A stretch of DNA of 64,000 nt from Chitinophaga pinensis (GTDB taxonomy: Bacteria > Bacteroidota > Bacteroidia > UKL13-3). The stretch lies in contig CAMARW010000007.1 of NCBI GenBank assembly GCA_945860865.1, positions 62,001-126,000 on the forward strand, read 5' to 3'. Under the pieces are notes generated by a model, which was not told where the DNA came from, did not search any database, and saw only the letters and a list, made by a program, of their open reading frames with translations. The position numbers were made by a program, and so were the translations under genes. This document shows, piece by piece, positions 22,475-30,936 of the stretch (position 1 is its first letter; each line of letters starts with the position of its first letter).

Positions 22475-22747
22475 TTAAAGATGAGTTGAATTGTTTAATT
22501 TGGCTTCTAGCGTCTTTTTTTCTTTGTATTTCTTGTAATAAATAAAACCAAAAACACCTGCAATGGCATAAGGTAAAACGAGCAAATACATAATGCCATT
22601 GTTTAGGGTATTACCCACGTTTGTGGTGCCTCTTTCTCTAGCCATTTCTAAATTGCTTTTACACATGGCACATTGGGCAGCAGCGGGTAAAGAGTAGATG
22701 CTAAAAACCAATAAAAGAATTAATACTATGCTTAGATATTTTTTCAT
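22475..22747 (-). CDS. Small exported or membrane protein with CxxC, oxidase-linked
   Basis: A 90-residue protein with a signal peptide (about 1-25, ending PAAAQ), an immediate C26-A-M-C29 pair, a short hydrophilic part with ERGTTNVGNTLNNG, and one transmembrane helix (about 52-71), then a basic tail. The mature domain is therefore a short periplasmic Cys-pair peptide tethered by a C-terminal helix. I do not recognise a named family. Position inside the oxidase run, next to DUF983 and DUF420 genes, suggests a role in oxidase assembly, perhaps holding copper. It is 11 bp from DUF983 and 9 bp from DUF420. Confidence 0.8.
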   Translation of the reverse strand: MKKYLSIVLILLLVFSIYSLPAAAQCAMCKSNLEMARERGTTNVGNTLNNGIMYLLVLPYAIAGVFGFIYYKKYKEKKTLEAKLNNSTHL

Positions 22748-22756
22748 TTTGTTTTT

Positions 22757-23308
22757 TTAGTTTGGATAAAATGGACTAATCATTAAATAAACAATTACTC
22801 CCGTTACGGTTACGTATAACCAAATTGGGTAAGCAAATCTTACAATTTTTTTATGAAGCTCAACTTGCATTTGCAAGCCTCTGTAAAAGCTAATTAGGAT
22901 AAGCGGCAAAACGATTGCGGCTAAAATAATATGGCTCGTTAAAATGCTTAAGTAAAAAGTACGCAATGGATTATCTGCTGGGTAACTGGTTTCGGGCGCC
23001 ATCCAATGGTATAAAACATAACTTACTAAAAAAACACTACTTAAGGCAAAAGCCATTAAATTAATGGTCTTATGTTTTTGTATATTCTTTTTCTTAATTT
23101 CAATTAAAGACCAAATTAATAACACACTACAAGTTGCATTTATTATGGCGTTTAGTTTTGGTAAAAAATAGGTCCATGAGGGCAATTCTGCTGGCACAGG
23201 GAGTATCTTCCTATTTAAAACAATTACTGCAATAAGAACAACTAAAGAGATGCCAATAGCAATTCTAAAAAACAACTTATCTTTACTTTCCTGGGTTGTG
23301 GTACTCAT
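22757..23308 (-). CDS. DUF420 family membrane protein
   Basis: A 183-residue inner-membrane protein with five predicted helices. The conserved His in VLYHWMAPE, the SHIILA segment and the C-terminal YPIWLYVTVTGVIVYLM mark DUF420 (also called the YozB group), which is associated with cytochrome oxidase assembly in several bacteria; CtaM of Gram-positives is a related idea. It overlaps the 3' end of the SCO gene by 26 bp, a sign of translational coupling. Its place in the oxidase run supports a role in heme-copper oxidase maturation, not shown directly. Confidence 0.82.
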   Translation of the reverse strand: MSTTTQESKDKLFFRIAIGISLVVLIAVIVLNRKILPVPAELPSWTYFLPKLNAIINATCSVLLIWSLIEIKKKNIQKHKTINLMAFALSSVFLVSYVLYHWMAPETSYPADNPLRTFYLSILTSHIILAAIVLPLILISFYRGLQMQVELHKKIVRFAYPIWLYVTVTGVIVYLMISPFYPN

Positions 23309-23936
23309 ATAACAATACTTTTAAATCTTCCTCTAATCTTTTAATTTCAACGTCGCTATAACTATCGTAAACGCCTCTAATGCGCTTTTCTTTATCTATT
23401 ATAATTAACTGCTGACTGTGGTCAATTGTTTTATCTTCTATAGAAACAGGTAATAAGAAGCCTTGTCCAATTTTAAAGATTTCATCATTTGTGTTTGTTT
23501 TGGCAAAATGCCAAATTTTAGGATCAGCCGAATATTTTTTAGCGTATTCGTTTAATACCTGAACCGAATCATTTAAAGGGTCAACAGTAAAACTTAGAAA
23601 ATGAACTTCAGCAAATTCTTTATATTTCTCATAAACTTTAGATAATCTTCTATTCATAGTAGGGCAAACATCTTCGCAAGAGGCGAAGAAAAAATTTGCA
23701 ACAAAGATTTTGTCATCAAAGCTAGCCAAGTTCAATTTTTTGTTACTTTGATCAGTTACCTCAAAATCGGGTATTTGATAATAAATGGTATCTTTTTGAA
23801 GTTTGCCATCAGGTGGAATGCGCTCACCAAAAATAGGCAGGGTAGTAAAATTGTGACTACCTGCGCTAAGCATATAAAAAATAACAACCGGAACTACAAG
23901 TAGTCCGGTTGCAACCCAAAATCCTTTTCTTTTCAT
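23283..23936 (-). CDS. SCO1/SenC family copper chaperone
   Basis: A 217-residue protein anchored by one N-terminal helix (about 6-24) with a thioredoxin-like periplasmic domain. The copper ligands are visible: C87-E-D-V-C91 in FFASCEDVCPTMN and His173 in TIDHSQQL. SCO proteins deliver copper to the binuclear CuA site of subunit II. It overlaps the subunit IV stop codon by one base and the DUF420 start by 26 bp. The natural client is the CoxB product encoded upstream in the same run. Confidence 0.92.
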   Translation of the reverse strand: MKRKGFWVATGLLVVPVVIFYMLSAGSHNFTTLPIFGERIPPDGKLQKDTIYYQIPDFEVTDQSNKKLNLASFDDKIFVANFFFASCEDVCPTMNRRLSKVYEKYKEFAEVHFLSFTVDPLNDSVQVLNEYAKKYSADPKIWHFAKTNTNDEIFKIGQGFLLPVSIEDKTIDHSQQLIIIDKEKRIRGVYDSYSDVEIKRLEEDLKVLLYEYHNPGK

Positions 23937-24268
23937 TATTTAATCCACCTAAGTAAATTGGTAAAATCACCTTCATTTAACATGAGGGCAACCAAGAAAA
24001 CCACAAATGCCATAGGTAAAACAATCATGTACATAAGAGATTTGCGTTCAAACTTCATGTGCATGAAGATACCAACAATATAATAAGCTTTTACAATTCC
24101 TAAAATGATGAACACCCAATTCTTCATCATATTTTGGTAAGGTAACAATATAAAATACAATACAATATCAACAATTGTAAAGGCAAATAAAATCCAAAAT
24201 GTTTTCCAAATTTGGCTTTTCATGTCTTTAGGCGTTTCTGTGTGCTCTAAATGTTCTGTGTGTTCCAT
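23936..24268 (-). CDS. Cytochrome c oxidase subunit IV, prokaryotic type
   Basis: A 110-residue protein with three transmembrane helices: WKTFWILFAFTIVDIVLYFIL, WVFIILGIVKAYYIVGIFMHMKFE and a C-terminal one. The helix-2 signature AYYIVGIFMHMKFE is typical of bacterial COX4 proteins. It is a small accessory subunit of the aa3-type oxidase and stabilises the CuB region. It follows coxC (subunit III) by 42 bp and has a His/Glu-rich N-terminus (MEHTEHLEHTE). The stop overlaps the SCO start by one base. Confidence 0.88.
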   Translation of the reverse strand: MEHTEHLEHTETPKDMKSQIWKTFWILFAFTIVDIVLYFILLPYQNMMKNWVFIILGIVKAYYIVGIFMHMKFERKSLMYMIVLPMAFVVFLVALMLNEGDFTNLLRWIK

Positions 24269-24310: not shown

Positions 24311-25063
24311 TCAAATGAGGTAGTAGAAGGTAAATACAAATACCCACACTAAATCTACGAAATGCCAATATAAACCTACTTTTTCAATCATTTCGTAATG
24401 ACCTCTTTTTTCGTAAGTGCCATTTAAAACATTAAGGTATATAATAACATTGAGCATAACACCAGAAAACACGTGGAAACCGTGGAATCCAGTTACGATA
24501 AAGAATAATGCCGCAAATGATTTTGGTCCAAATGGATTTTCATATAACCTTGCGCCTTCTCCAATAAAAGTAGACCATTCCCAAGCCTGGCAACCTAAGA
24601 AAGCGGCACCACCAATAATAGTTAATAACATGTATTTAGCCACTTCATCCTTTGCCATTCTATGTCCTGCTTCTACCGCTAATACCATAGTAACAGAGCT
24701 GAAAATGAGTATAAAAGTCATTAAGCTAACAAAAAACAATGGTAAATGCATACCGTGTACAAATGGGAAATGGTTAAAAACCAATTCTGGTGAAGGCCAA
24801 TGATCTTGCACGAATAAACCTGCTTGTTGCATTTGCTCAACAAAATTATCAGACAAATGAGCTAATGGTTTAACAATTTCATTGTGAATTGGAGATTGGA
24901 ATGAATAACGGATAAATCCGTATGCAATTAATAATGATGAAAAAGTAAATGCATCCGAAAGTAAGAAGATCCACATCATCAACTTTCCATAGCTTACACT
25001 AAACGGAGACTTTCCGCCTCCCCATGTAAACTTGTTTTCAGTACTTAAAGTGTTTGTAGCCAT
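24311..25063 (-). CDS. Cytochrome c oxidase subunit III
   Basis: A 250-residue membrane protein with seven predicted helices and the subunit III signatures WEWSTFIGEG, FIVTGFHGFHVFSGVMLNVI and WHFVDLVWVFVFTFYYL, including the conserved Glu and His residues. Subunit III has no redox centre but stabilises the proton-pumping subunit I. It is the longer of two adjacent subunit III-type genes; the 193-residue paralog is 33 bp upstream. Possession of two such proteins in one cluster is common in aerobic Bacteroidota as far as I know. Confidence 0.92.
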   Translation of the reverse strand: MATNTLSTENKFTWGGGKSPFSVSYGKLMMWIFLLSDAFTFSSLLIAYGFIRYSFQSPIHNEIVKPLAHLSDNFVEQMQQAGLFVQDHWPSPELVFNHFPFVHGMHLPLFFVSLMTFILIFSSVTMVLAVEAGHRMAKDEVAKYMLLTIIGGAAFLGCQAWEWSTFIGEGARLYENPFGPKSFAALFFIVTGFHGFHVFSGVMLNVIIYLNVLNGTYEKRGHYEMIEKVGLYWHFVDLVWVFVFTFYYLI

Positions 25064-25096: not shown

Positions 25097-25678
25097 TTAT
25101 CTGTATAGATATAAAAATAGGTAAAGATAGATCCAAAGTATTCCAACAAAATGCCAATAAGTTGCGCACATGCCAGTGTAAAGCAAGTTCCCCGATTCTA
25201 ATTTATTTCTCAAAGACTGAATAAATTGAATCAAAACAAAAATAACACCTCCCAACACGTGAAACAAATGCACTCCAGAAATAACATAAACAAATGAGTT
25301 TGATGGGTTTGAAAACGCAAAAAATACGTTATCAGCGGTAAGTTGACCCCATGCTAAAACCTGTACATAGCAGAATGTTAATCCGAAGGCTAAGGTTAAT
25401 CCCAATAAAAGCTTGGCTTGCGAAAGGCGGTTATTTTTTTGGGCCCATACTGAAAGTTGCATGGTTAAAGAAGAAAGCAAAACAAAAATAGTGTTCCAAG
25501 CAAATAAAGAAGGAAGATTAAATATTTCCCAATTACCTTCTCCTCTGCGCACAATGTATGCACTAGTAAAACCAGCAAATAGCATTACGCTTGCAACAAT
25601 TAGTAACCACAAAACAAATTTCTTTGGGTTAATGATGTAATTAGCATCTTCGGTATTTTTTATAGAGATATTTTCCAT
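25097..25678 (-). CDS. Cytochrome c oxidase subunit III-like protein, short paralog
   Basis: A 193-residue heme-copper oxidase subunit III-family membrane protein with five helices. It keeps the signature SGVHLFHVLGGVIFVLIQF and the C-terminal CATYWHFVGILWIYLYLFLYL. It lacks the two N-terminal helices of full-length subunit III. An in-frame upstream extension to 25738 overlaps cyoE and looks spurious; the ATG at 25678 is only one base past the cyoE stop at 25680 and gives a proper hydrophilic start (MENISIKNTED). It probably joins the other subunit III in the oxidase. Confidence 0.88.
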   Translation of the reverse strand: MENISIKNTEDANYIINPKKFVLWLLIVASVMLFAGFTSAYIVRRGEGNWEIFNLPSLFAWNTIFVLLSSLTMQLSVWAQKNNRLSQAKLLLGLTLAFGLTFCYVQVLAWGQLTADNVFFAFSNPSNSFVYVISGVHLFHVLGGVIFVLIQFIQSLRNKLESGNLLYTGMCATYWHFVGILWIYLYLFLYLYR

Positions 25679-25679
25679 G

Positions 25680-26588
25680 TTAAATTTTATCAAATAAGTA
25701 AGCCAATTGAACCATTGGCAGGTAAATAAACGAGGCAAACATCAATTTTTTGGCTTCTGCTATTTCACAAGTTTTGAATAATCTAAAAGAATAATAAGTT
25801 AACATTAGACCTCCAATAATACCAACTATTGCAGAAATAAACCCACTAATTCCGTATTGATATGGCAACATCCCAATTGGTATTAAAGCTAAGCTAAAAA
25901 CCAAGGCTTGAAAAGCTGTGCCTTTATCTCTACCTGGTGTAGAAGGTAACATTTTGAAACCTGCTCTTTTATAATCATCGTCTAATATCCATGCAATGCT
26001 CCAGAAATGTGGGAATTGCCAAAAGAATTGAACCCCAAAAACAATTAATGCATTGGCATCAATTTTACCAGTAAAAGCAACCCAACCCAACAAGGTAGGG
26101 ATAGCTCCTGGAAAGGCACCCACAAAAACAGATATGGGCGAAATGCGTTTTAACGGAGTATAAACAAAAGCATAGCTAATTAAGGCAATCAATGCCAACC
26201 AACCAGATAGTGGGTTTAAATAAAAGCTAATCAATACTACTCCCGAAATGCCTAAAATGGTGCTAAATATTGAAGCCTCAAGGGCACTCATTCTTTTTGT
26301 AGCCACCGGTCGGTTAGCTGTACGTACCATTAATTTATCGAAATCTTTTTCTATAACCTGATTGATGCCATTGCTTGCGCCTGTTACCAAAAAGCCACCC
26401 AAAGTTAATATAGCTACTTCAAACCAATTAATAGCACCTGTACTAGCTGTTAGGTAGGTAATTACAGAAGAAAACACCACCAAAGAAGTTAGGCGAAATT
26501 TAATCAATTGATTATAATCCTGAACCTTCGCCCTGAAAAAACTCAGTTCGTTTGCGGTATCATTTGTATTTACAGCTTTTACTTTCAC
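25680..26588 (-). CDS. cyoE: Protoheme IX farnesyltransferase (heme O synthase)
   Basis: A 302-residue integral membrane prenyltransferase that adds a farnesyl group to heme b, giving heme O. The Asp-rich prenyl-diphosphate motif is NQVIEKDFDKLMVRTANRP, and the second is LDDDYKRAGFKMLP. Nine helices are expected and fit the hydrophobic pattern. It overlaps ctaA by four bases (ATGA-type), so heme O and heme A synthesis are coupled. Product feeds ctaA and then CoxA (27614-29458). It is also called ctaB in Bacteroidota. Confidence 0.93.
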   Translation of the reverse strand: MKVKAVNTNDTANELSFFRAKVQDYNQLIKFRLTSLVVFSSVITYLTASTGAINWFEVAILTLGGFLVTGASNGINQVIEKDFDKLMVRTANRPVATKRMSALEASIFSTILGISGVVLISFYLNPLSGWLALIALISYAFVYTPLKRISPISVFVGAFPGAIPTLLGWVAFTGKIDANALIVFGVQFFWQFPHFWSIAWILDDDYKRAGFKMLPSTPGRDKGTAFQALVFSLALIPIGMLPYQYGISGFISAIVGIIGGLMLTYYSFRLFKTCEIAEAKKLMFASFIYLPMVQLAYLFDKI

Positions 26589-27562
26589 GCTTTTTTGTTT
26601 TCTATTTTTAGTTCTGTTTTTGTAAACACTAAGATGGCAATAAAAATTTGCAATCCAACTGTTAAACTACCCAATGTTAAATGTATACTTTGAAACTCGC
26701 CCGGAAAACCAAGGTTTGCCAGCACTGCTCCAGTTAATGCTTGGGTACACATTAACAGTATTAAAGCCAACGAGGCTTTGTATAGGATGGAGTTTCTCAG
26801 ATACAATTTCTTAAATACGATAATCATAAAAGCTGTTGTTAATAAATTTAACCAACTCCAACTTCTATGCACCAAAAAAGTATTACCCGCGTTTTCTGTC
26901 CACAACCACCTATTGTCTATTCTTCCAGCAATTTCATCTATTACTTCCCTTACCTGTGTGCCAGTTACCGTTTGAACCAAGGCAATAAATAAGGATAAAG
27001 CGATTAGATATTTTAAATTAGGGTAGGCTTTTACTTGTTCAATTTTAAACTCTTGGCTCGCAGTTGCAGTGTATATTAACAAACCAACAATTACCAATGC
27101 TATTAACATGTGAATGGTAATCATATAAGTTGCTAAGTCAGTTGATACTACAATAGACCCTATCCAACCTTGAAAGCCAACCAAGATAAAAGCTAAAAAA
27201 CTTAGCCAAAAAATCTTTTTGTTATTACTTTTAAGATAAGGATAAGCAAATACCACCGTTAAAAACACCAAAAAACCAATTACAACGCCTATTAATCGGT
27301 TGTAATATTCTGTCCATGTTTTAAACGAATCAAAGTCGGCTATTTCTTTTCCAGCAACGGCAAACTTGGTTTTATAATCTGCAGGTAGCTCGCTAATATC
27401 TGAGGGTGGTATCCATTGTCCAAAGCATTTTGGCCAATCCGGACAACCCATTCCGCTTCCCGTACTGCGTACTAATCCACCTATAAAAATGAGAAAGAAC
27501 ACTGCTGCAATGGTAGCTATCCCAAAGCGTCTAAACCGAATTTGTTTTTTTAATTGAATCAC
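26585..27562 (-). CDS. ctaA: Heme A synthase, COX15/CtaA family
   Basis: A 325-residue membrane protein with eight helices that oxidises the C8 methyl of heme O to form heme A, the cofactor of the aa3 oxidase. Family features visible are GGLVRSTGSGMGCPDWPKCFG split as GLVRSTGSGMGCPDWP and KCFGQW (a Cys pair in the first periplasmic loop), TEYYNRLIGVVIG (heme-binding Glu/His region) and VHRSWSWLN. It is followed by cyoE with a 4-bp overlap. Upstream sits the 33-bp palindrome between it and coxA. Confidence 0.92.
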   Translation of the reverse strand: MIQLKKQIRFRRFGIATIAAVFFLIFIGGLVRSTGSGMGCPDWPKCFGQWIPPSDISELPADYKTKFAVAGKEIADFDSFKTWTEYYNRLIGVVIGFLVFLTVVFAYPYLKSNNKKIFWLSFLAFILVGFQGWIGSIVVSTDLATYMITIHMLIALVIVGLLIYTATASQEFKIEQVKAYPNLKYLIALSLFIALVQTVTGTQVREVIDEIAGRIDNRWLWTENAGNTFLVHRSWSWLNLLTTAFMIIVFKKLYLRNSILYKASLALILLMCTQALTGAVLANLGFPGEFQSIHLTLGSLTVGLQIFIAILVFTKTELKIENKKA

Positions 27563-27613: not shown

Positions 27614-29458
27614 TTAAGCCATTACGGGTTCTTGAACCGATTTTTTGCTCGGCTCAGGCAAACCTACAGCTTCTTCCATTGGGTCTATTTGACCAGCATC
27701 TGGAATATTCTGTGGAATGAAATCTTCTTCAGCACCTGGCTTGCTATAATCATAAGCCCAACGGTATACATGTGGAATCTCTCCAGGCCAGTTTCCATGC
27801 AAATGCTCTACAGGGGCTGTCCACTCTAAAGTGGTAGAATTCCATGGATTTTGCGGGGCTCTTTTGCCTTTGTAAATACTTATAAAGAAGTTAGCTAAGA
27901 ATATTAATTGAGCAGCACCACCTAATATAGCGGCGATTGTAATAAACTGGTTCATATCAACAAATACGTTAAATTGATCGTAAGCAGTGTTTGCGTAATA
28001 CCTACGCGGAACGCCAGCTAAGCCCATAAAGTGCATTGGAAAAAACACACAATATGCAGATACGATAGTTAACCAAAAATGAACATGTCCGGCAGTTTCG
28101 TTCATCATTCTTCCAAATAATTTTGGATACCAATGGTAAATTCCACTTAGCATACCAAAAATGGCTGCGCTACCCATTACCAAATGGAAGTGAGCCACTA
28201 CAAAATAAGTATCATGTAAGTTTATATCTAGAGCGGCATTTCCTAAATAAATACCTGTTAATCCTCCAGAGATAAAGAATGATACCAATCCAATGGCAAA
28301 CATCATTGCAGGCGTTAAATGTAAATTACCTTTCCATAAAGTAGCTAAGTAGTTAAAAGTTTTAACCGCAGATGGAACTGCAATAATCAAAGTACCCAAC
28401 ATAAATACTGAGCCTAAGAATGGATTCATACCTGTAATAAACATGTGGTGACCCCAAACGATGAATGATAAAATACCAATGGCTAAAATTGAACCAATCA
28501 TCGCACGGTATCCAAAAATTGGCTTACGAGAATTGGTTGCAATTACCTCAGAGGTAATACCTAAAGCCGGTAATAAAATAATGTATACCTCTGGGTGACC
28601 TAAGAACCAGAATAAATGCTGGAATAGGATAGGAGAACCACCTGTTCTTTCTATACCACCTGCAAATTCTGCCACAATTTCTGAAAGGTAAAAAGATGTT
28701 CCAAAGCTACGGTCGAAAACCAATAACAATGAGCCTCCTAATAATACTGGGAAAGATAATAATCCTAATATAGCTGTTACAAAAAACGCCCAAATGGTAA
28801 GAGGTAAACGAGTCATCTTCATACCTTTTGTACGCATATTTAAAACAGTAGCAATATAATTAATACCACCTAACAAGGCAGAGGCAATAAAAAGGATCAT
28901 AGCTGCTAACCAGAGTGTCATACCTGTACCCGAACCCGGAATAGCACTTGGCAAAGCAGATAAAGGAGGATAAACCGTCCAACCTGCTGAAGCTGGTCCG
29001 CCATCTACAAATAATGAAGATAACAATACTACAGATGAAGCAAAAAAGAACCAGTATGATAACATATTCATAAAAGGAGATGCCATGTCTCTTGCTCCAA
29101 TTTGAAGTGGAATAAGTAGGTTAGAAAACGTTCCGCTTAATCCTGCCGTTAATACATAAAATACCATGATTGTTCCATGTATGGTAATTAAGGCTAGGTA
29201 GAAATTAGGATCTAATTTTCCGTCTTTAGCCCAATGACCTAAAACACCTTCTAAAAAAGGAAATTTCATATCTGGATAAGCCAATTGTAAACGGAAGATT
29301 AAGGACATAATCATACCAATGGTTCCCATAATAATTCCAGTTATCAAGAATTGGCGGGCAATCATTTTGTGGTCCATGCTAAAAACATACTTCGAAAAGA
29401 AGTTGTCTTCGTGGTGTTCATGCTCTTCGTGATTGTGTGTCAAGTTGTGATCGCTCAT
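27614..29458 (-). CDS. ctaD: Cytochrome c oxidase subunit I, A1 type
   Basis: The 614-residue catalytic subunit with twelve helices. Heme a ligands are His94 (TIHGTIMVFY) and His425; heme a3 ligand is His423 (VAHFHLVMG). CuB ligands are His288 (GHPEVY) and the His337-His338 pair (WGHHMF); Tyr292 of HPEVY forms the His-Tyr crosslink, and Glu290 marks the D-channel type A1. This proton-pumping oxidase reduces O2 to water. The N-terminus is His/Glu-rich (HNLTHNHEEHEHHED), unusual for the family. Stop lies 7 bp before the palindrome; the CoxB stop is 35 bp upstream of its ATG. Confidence 0.95.
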   Translation of the reverse strand: MSDHNLTHNHEEHEHHEDNFFSKYVFSMDHKMIARQFLITGIIMGTIGMIMSLIFRLQLAYPDMKFPFLEGVLGHWAKDGKLDPNFYLALITIHGTIMVFYVLTAGLSGTFSNLLIPLQIGARDMASPFMNMLSYWFFFASSVVLLSSLFVDGGPASAGWTVYPPLSALPSAIPGSGTGMTLWLAAMILFIASALLGGINYIATVLNMRTKGMKMTRLPLTIWAFFVTAILGLLSFPVLLGGSLLLVFDRSFGTSFYLSEIVAEFAGGIERTGGSPILFQHLFWFLGHPEVYIILLPALGITSEVIATNSRKPIFGYRAMIGSILAIGILSFIVWGHHMFITGMNPFLGSVFMLGTLIIAVPSAVKTFNYLATLWKGNLHLTPAMMFAIGLVSFFISGGLTGIYLGNAALDINLHDTYFVVAHFHLVMGSAAIFGMLSGIYHWYPKLFGRMMNETAGHVHFWLTIVSAYCVFFPMHFMGLAGVPRRYYANTAYDQFNVFVDMNQFITIAAILGGAAQLIFLANFFISIYKGKRAPQNPWNSTTLEWTAPVEHLHGNWPGEIPHVYRWAYDYSKPGAEEDFIPQNIPDAGQIDPMEEAVGLPEPSKKSVQEPVMA

Positions 29459-29493: not shown

Positions 29494-30936
29494 TTAGTTT
29501 AAGGCTACAGCTGAAGCGTTTGCTGTTTTTTTGTTAACCAATACTTTTTGGGTTTTCATCCATTTTTTGTAATCTTCTTTGGTATGAACAACCACTTTCA
29601 TTTTCATTCTATAATGGGCTCCACCACAAATTTTATTACACAATAAAACGTAATCAAATTCAGGTTTATTCATTTTAGTTCTCATTTCTGCAGTGGTTAC
29701 AGTAGGTTTAAAAGCAAATCTAGTTGGTAAACCTGGCACCACGTTCATTTGTACACGGAAATGTGGTAAGTAAGCACTATGAATTACGTCTTTAGCACGG
29801 AATGCAAAATCAACAGGCTGATTTACCTCTAAATGCAATTCATTCGTAATTACATCATCATGTGCATTCACATCATTTGTATCAACTCCTAGCGCGTTTA
29901 CTTTGCCAACCTCGCGGAAGTTGTGTGAACCTAATTTATTATCAGCACCAGCATAACGAGCATTCCAGCCAAATTGGTAAGCATAGATTTCAATGTTTCT
30001 AGCTTTTTCATTTTTGTTATCCATCATTTCGTCCCAGGTTAATAAACCACGAACAACTAAAATTGTTAAAACAATCGCAGGAATAACTGTCCACAATAAT
30101 TCTATTTTATGATTATCTGGATAATATAAAGCTTTACGTTTGCCGTCTGATTTGTATTTGTATCCGTACCAAAATAACAATACTTGGGTGATAACAAATA
30201 CGATACCTGTTATGATAAGGGTTACCATGAACATACTATCGTACTCAGCACCATGTTCTGATGCGGAACCAGAACTAAATACTGTATGCTTGCTATGTGC
30301 CCAAAATTCCCATGCTGTGGCACCTAATCCAATAATTAGAAAAGCCAACAATAAGATAGAATTTGTTTTATTCCAATTAACAACTGGTTTTCCTTGGATA
30401 TCACCAATTCTTCCTAAAATTTTAGAAACGGTAGCGATAATTAATGTTAATACAATTGCTATAATGAATAATAACCAATTGATGGCACTGTCCCAATCTG
30501 TTGAAGCAGCTGATGCTGTGGCTCCTGCCGTTGGTGCAGGCACGGCAACTCCTGCTGTAGCGGTAACAGCCGGGGTTTCGCTTTCAGCTTTGATATAAGC
30601 CAATAACGACTTAATTTCGTTATCGCTTAGGTTTTCAAATGAGGTCATCATTGCCTCATTATTTTCTTTATATACTTGAACGGCAACAGGATCTCCACTT
30701 TTAACTAAAGCCTGAGAATTCTTAATCCACTTAATTAACCAAGCTTCTTCTCTGCGTTTGTGAACATCTTTTAAAGCTGGACCAACAACTTTCTCGTTGA
30801 TAGCATGACAAGCGGTACAATTTGCGTTGTAAAGCGTTTTTCCTTCTTCTGCACTTTGAGCCGAAAGCTTCAAAGTGAAAGTAAAAGCGATTGCTACAAG
30901 CAAGGTAAATTTAGATAACAGTTTGACAATCTTCAT
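29494..30936 (-). CDS. ctaC: Cytochrome c oxidase subunit II with N-terminal cytochrome c domain
   Basis: A 480-residue protein, much longer than the usual 220-350. Order: signal peptide (1-26), a cytochrome c domain (about 28-120) with heme motif C40-T-A-C43-H44 and a candidate Met ligand at 96-97, an Ala/Pro linker (122-146), two extra hydrophobic helices (about 153-173 and 193-210), the two usual subunit II helices (about 234-258 and 281-299) and the CuA domain. CuA ligands are His386, Cys433, Cys437, His441 and Met444. The Glu that normally lies between the cysteines (CSELC) is Lys435 (CNKIC). Most caa3 oxidases carry the heme c domain at the C-terminus; here it is N-terminal. It is the first gene of the oxidase run, preceded by 163 bp. 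Confidence 0.92.
   Translation of the reverse strand: MKIVKLLSKFTLLVAIAFTFTLKLSAQSAEEGKTLYNANCTACHAINEKVVGPALKDVHKRREEAWLIKWIKNSQALVKSGDPVAVQVYKENNEAMMTSFENLSDNEIKSLLAYIKAESETPAVTATAGVAVPAPTAGATASAASTDWDSAINWLLFIIAIVLTLIIATVSKILGRIGDIQGKPVVNWNKTNSILLLAFLIIGLGATAWEFWAHSKHTVFSSGSASEHGAEYDSMFMVTLIITGIVFVITQVLLFWYGYKYKSDGKRKALYYPDNHKIELLWTVIPAIVLTILVVRGLLTWDEMMDNKNEKARNIEIYAYQFGWNARYAGADNKLGSHNFREVGKVNALGVDTNDVNAHDDVITNELHLEVNQPVDFAFRAKDVIHSAYLPHFRVQMNVVPGLPTRFAFKPTVTTAEMRTKMNKPEFDYVLLCNKICGGAHYRMKMKVVVHTKEDYKKWMKTQKVLVNKKTANASAVALN

Follow-up and report, generated by a model that had tools for sequence, protein, structure and literature searches.

The fused CoxB and its gene neighborhood

The 64,000-nucleotide stretch of DNA analysed here (the window) encodes a 480-residue fused cytochrome c/CuA subunit II, CoxB (29494..30936, -), in a single unbroken frame from an ATG to a stop codon. 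It shows the following order of parts: a signal peptide (residues 1-27; 30856..30936, -), hydrophobic at 3-21 and predicted as a helix at 2-20 by AlphaFold2; an ActA-type monoheme cytochrome c domain delineated by Pfam, sequence comparison and AlphaFold2 (residues 28-120; 30577..30855, -), with the heme attachment motif CTACH at residues 40-44 (30805..30819, -); and an Ala/Thr/Pro-rich, disordered and fast-evolving linker (residues 121-147; 30496..30576, -). These are followed by transmembrane helices 1-2, an extra hairpin that is found class-wide (residues 148-217; 30286..30495, -), helices 3-4, the canonical CoxB pair (residues 227-306; 30019..30258, -; COX2_TM match at 233-294), and the periplasmic CuA domain (residues 310-465; 29542..30009, -). 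The CuA loop, CNKICGGAHYRM, occupies residues 433-444 (29605..29640, -), and His386 is a further ligand.

Besides that of the signal peptide, the hydrophobic segments lie at 152-170, 193-211, 236-254 and 280-298, and an AlphaFold2 model with 46 homologues as input places a heme domain at about 29-120 (per-block pLDDT about 86-96), helices at 148-181, 188-217, 227-262 and 273-306, and then the CuA domain, with the linker at 125-145 falling below a pLDDT of 50. Pfam recovers Cytochrom_C (E 5e-13) and COX2_TM (4e-9), both above cut-off; the match to the CuA model COX2 is just below it (19.4 bits, cut-off 22), and TIGR02866 matches with an E-value of 5e-31 but scores 107.8 bits, below its cut-off of 147.7. 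The sequence-only reading of signal peptide, CxxCH domain, linker, four helices and full CuA site in one frame is thus borne out by motifs, Pfam and AlphaFold2. Its proviso that an internal start codon might separate the two parts finds little in its favor: there is no ATG at residues 98-200 and the only candidates are TTG112 and GTG132, close to where the heme domain ends, so that separate translation is unlikely.

The CuA ligands His386, Cys433, Cys437, His441 and Met444 are invariant across 46 sequences. Among the aligned fused CoxB proteins (n=13) the CxxCH and Met97 are likewise invariant, and the latter is probably the sixth (axial) heme ligand beside His44. The CxxCH at 40-44 is the only one in the protein, and no C-terminal heme c domain follows CuA. 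Phe322, in the motif QFGW, is invariant in 46 Bacteroidia sequences; Thermus caa3 has QFWW, and the mitochondrial-type subunit II has QWYW at this place, with the electron-entry Trp.

The coxB gene stands at the head of a cox cluster without complex III genes, in a context typical of an A-type oxidase subunit II in that it adjoins coxA and cox assembly genes. The gene for subunit I, coxA (27614..29458, -; TIGR02891 E 8e-180), follows 35 bases after coxB, and beyond it come ctaA for a COX15-like assembly protein (26585..27562, -; PF02628 E 2e-49), ctaB for a UbiA family protein, probably the heme O synthase (25680..26588, -; PF01040 E 1e-55), two consecutive coxC-like genes (25097-25738 and 24311-25063, -), a subunit IV-like gene (23936-24268, -) and SCO1 (23283-23936, -). 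At the end of the cluster a 90-residue protein with no Pfam match (22475-22747, -) combines the motif AQCAMCKSNLE with a hydrophobic stretch; a similar protein with AQCAMCKSSV is encoded next to cox genes at a locus from another class (L225 12898-13257), and the family is perhaps an uncharacterised oxidase assembly protein.

Relationship of the heme domain to ActA and the traits shared across the class

The usual CoxB has two helices, and in the known caa3 oxidases heme c sits C-terminally on subunit II, with a Glu as the textbook residue between the CuA cysteines. The sequence-only reading therefore regarded the protein as a caa3-like subunit with reversed domain order, two added helices, a Lys (Lys435) at the Glu position and an electron path leading across four helices. 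The N-terminal placement of heme c holds, and so do the number of helices and the identity of the residue. However, nearly every Bacteroidia CoxB protein examined, heme-bearing or heme-less, has four helices and the Lys, and CNK-[IV]-CG is the norm of the class at the CuA loop (CNKICG in the window), so that neither the extra hairpin nor Lys435 sets this protein apart. In the sampled members of other classes of the phylum, CoxB matches start only with helix 3, which corresponds to the usual subunit with two helices. Further, since the number of helices is even, the N-terminal heme domain and CuA are both periplasmic, and no electron has to cross the four helices. A profile comparison addressing a possible derivation of the helix 1-2 hairpin from the hairpin of ActA gave 45%, over 15 columns only. 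In families f52 (L076, L081, L104) and f37 (L075, L078), the fused CoxB has an insert of about 70-90 residues in the CuA domain, located before a DDxxxxxEIH segment.

A caa3 origin is also not what sequence comparisons recover. The nearest solved relative by sequence is the N-terminal domain of ActA from the alternative complex III (ACIII) of Flavobacterium johnsoniae (6btm_A, E 4e-30, residues 29-184), with other monoheme cytochromes next at E 7e-13. In the window genome itself, all of actABCDEF is present as an operon on a different contig from coxB, with an ActA containing six CxxCH motifs; the ActA-type domain is hence present on both partners. Identity between CoxB and this ActA is 76% in the heme core, 36% in the linker and 22% in the region of the first helix, indicating that the shared part is the heme domain. 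Judged from these sequence relationships, the N-terminal part of CoxB represents a copy of ActA's mobile heme domain. As in F. johnsoniae ActA (6BTM; PMC8552683), a homologous class-I monoheme domain stands between a signal peptide and a linker that leads to a transmembrane segment; unlike there, the window copy is joined to CoxB and the genome carries the domain on both proteins. With caa3 subunit IIc (Thermus 2YEV; Rhodothermus marinus, Bacillus) it shares a heme c covalently tethered to the CuA subunit, but the domain is at the opposite end, comes from another cytochrome source and is mounted on a four-helix subunit.

Distribution, possible exchange and reciprocal loss of the domain

The sequence-only reading suggested a homolog search for N-terminal CxxCH combined with CuA; 46 loci retrieved from nine families all have the same order in one frame. 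With the arrangement shared so widely, and the heme domain as constrained as the oxidase core, a fusion by chance, an artefact of the frame or an error of assembly can be set aside with near certainty. Similar records are labelled as uncultured Bacteroidota metagenome-assembled genomes, apparently mostly freshwater. Among 120 Bacteroidia genomes that are at least 95% complete and have both genes, the fusion is present in 19. A small sample of the other classes of the phylum contained no N-terminal heme fusion; one candidate (G473) proved to encode the cytochrome c as a separate gene upstream of coxB. The possibility raised earlier, that this is an already described trait of all Bacteroidota, thus does not hold: it is present in 19 of the 120 genomes, and we found no description of a CoxB-ActA-domain fusion in the open papers searched, an absence that is weak evidence because these include few subscription papers. 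A fused CoxB of the type seen in the family of the window genome (L065 7416-8864, +; nearest G036) is also encoded in a genome of another family, f20 (G252), that has its own kind of ActA, reflecting either horizontal transfer or a binning error.

The two partners show a clear pattern of combinations. Six-heme ActA accompanies an unfused CoxB in 100 of the 120 genomes and a fused CoxB in 14, including the window genome; five-heme ActA accompanies a fused CoxB in five, and a shortened ActA occurs with an unfused CoxB in one (G088). The cox genes adjoin the ACIII operon in 83/101 genomes with unfused CoxB versus 0/19 with the fusion (Fisher p 3e-12, kinship ignored), although fusion and linkage cluster in the phylogeny, and such p-values therefore imply more independent events than there are.

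When targeted searches beyond the sample are included, ActA proteins lacking the domain are found in five lineages, corresponding to five changes on the CoxB tree: genus g14 of the window family, families f16, f52 and f57, and genus g109 of family f49. All of these have a fused CoxB (a g14 genome, G060, was left out because no CoxB was found in it). Several of the shortened ActA proteins still have their signal peptide and linker, suggesting that the domain has been lost. The ActA of genus g14 (L095, L096, L097, L221) starts at the transmembrane hairpin and has five hemes, with neither signal peptide nor heme domain. Cytochrome b (PF00033) was found neither in the window genome nor in five genomes with domain-less ActA. 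The one exception to the pairing of a shortened ActA with a fused CoxB is G088, where a truncated ActA is found together with an unfused CoxB; this breaks the absolute rule that every genome has the domain on at least one partner and implies that the heme arm is not strictly required. In this genome (L205, L206, L207) a divergent ACIII lies beside nitrate reductase-like genes, an apparent ActD-ActE fusion of 364 residues contains one CxxCH, and two cox clusters lack the heme arm.

The converse loss is seen on CoxB. Within the window family, CoxB is heme-less in genera g5, g6 and g10, where a signal peptide and short linker are left, as well as in g3, g4 and g12. In the window genus, the CoxB of G018 (L024 1264-2694, -) retains its frame, signal peptide and oxidase core, and ADCPDH replaces the CxxCH; identity to its sister is 33% in the heme domain versus 83% in the core, so that the former has lost its constraint. 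The CoxB heme is lost or degenerate where ActA retains six hemes, and such repeated loss shows that CoxB can do without it as long as ActA has a domain of its own.

In a tree of the heme domains, the CoxB and ActA copies cluster by lineage (the window family, f37, f49/f58, f55 and f17). A constrained single CoxB clade is rejected with a log-likelihood difference of 252 (p-AU 1.5e-16), ruling out one CoxB fusion without later exchange. The CoxB core tree needs seven gains or losses of the fusion, six of them forced by well-supported branches. These trees are compatible with several fusions as well as with a single old fusion followed by repeated old exchange. Within the window family, CoxB-ActA pairs from the same genome average 73.4% identity versus 67.1% across genomes (permutation p 0.0004). 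Codons at conserved residues of the two window-genome copies are identical at a frequency of 0.46, near the 0.43 expected by chance; hence, any exchange between actA and coxB is old, and recent gene conversion between them can be rejected. We tentatively propose, at slightly less than even odds, that the heme carrying electrons from complex III to the oxidase in Bacteroidia is a portable module which was repeatedly copied or converted between actA and coxB, genes of two different respiratory complexes, and then lost from either, making its distribution a natural swap experiment that identifies the direct donor to CuA.

A proposed tethered electron carrier between ACIII and CuA

In the two pairs with unsaturated dS, the heme domain has a dN/dS of 0.04-0.07, like that of the oxidase core, and the linker one of 0.4-0.7, evolving about ten times faster than the heme domain. 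A constrained heme domain on a fast-evolving linker is the pattern that a tethered carrier would be predicted to leave. A precedent is presented by F. johnsoniae, where the N-terminal heme domain of ActA is mobile, was not seen in the structure and is proposed to supply cytochrome aa3, ACIII is the sole electron source of that oxidase, and ActE is dispensable (PMC8552683). In addition, the ActA N-terminal domain seems to take over the function that a cytochrome c domain has in caa3 subunit IIc (PMC5928083). As in the Flavobacterium ACIII-aa3 supercomplex, the window genome has the same two complexes, with an ACIII operon and no cytochrome b; unlike there, its cox operon is separate from the ACIII operon, and a heme arm is also attached to CoxB. 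By analogy with the F. johnsoniae ActA domain, the presumed task of the CoxB heme would be to pass electrons to the CuA of aa3.

We hence propose, with a probability of roughly three in four, that the heme domain of CoxB, a copy of that of ActA, is a tethered shuttle which carries electrons from ACIII to CuA and which either partner can bear. The front domain would be exported and receive heme c in the periplasm, where it would hang from helix 1 by the flexible linker of about 25 residues, on the side of CuA. Electrons are predicted to arrive from ACIII, via ActE, the heme wire of ActA or ActA's own N-terminal heme, upon which the arm would swing and pass them to the CuA of the same subunit. 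The CoxB heme would thereby play, from the side of the oxidase, the part proposed for the sixth ActA heme from the side of ACIII in F. johnsoniae.

The donor might instead lie outside ACIII, with the CoxB heme serving soluble cytochrome c or other dehydrogenases in the manner of a conventional fixed cytochrome c, after cox ceased to be co-transcribed with ACIII. The separation of all 19 fused genes from the ACIII operon would fit such a role, as would the retention of both domains in the window genome, where that of CoxB is not needed merely to replace that of ActA. Nevertheless, the domain copies that of ACIII itself and is closer to the ActA of its own genome than to those of relatives, and G088 aside, the ActA domain has been lost only where CoxB carries one; we therefore regard donors other than ACIII as unlikely. 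Much less probable still is a reading in which evolution has left the fused domain as a relic with no part in electron transfer. The degenerate G018 copy and the signal peptide-linker remnants in g5, g6 and g10 would be in keeping with a relic, but purifying selection as strong as that on the oxidase core in the window genus and the invariance of CxxCH and Met97 in the aligned fused members argue against it.

The preferred reading, of a shuttle between ACIII and CuA, bears on which heme passes electrons from ACIII to the oxidase: lineages with the domain on ActA, on CoxB or on both are natural experiments that point to this domain as the direct donor. Those with the domain on CoxB only could hold it close to CuA for structural work. 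More generally, these proteins present a case of a redox domain moving between the partners of a respiratory supercomplex.
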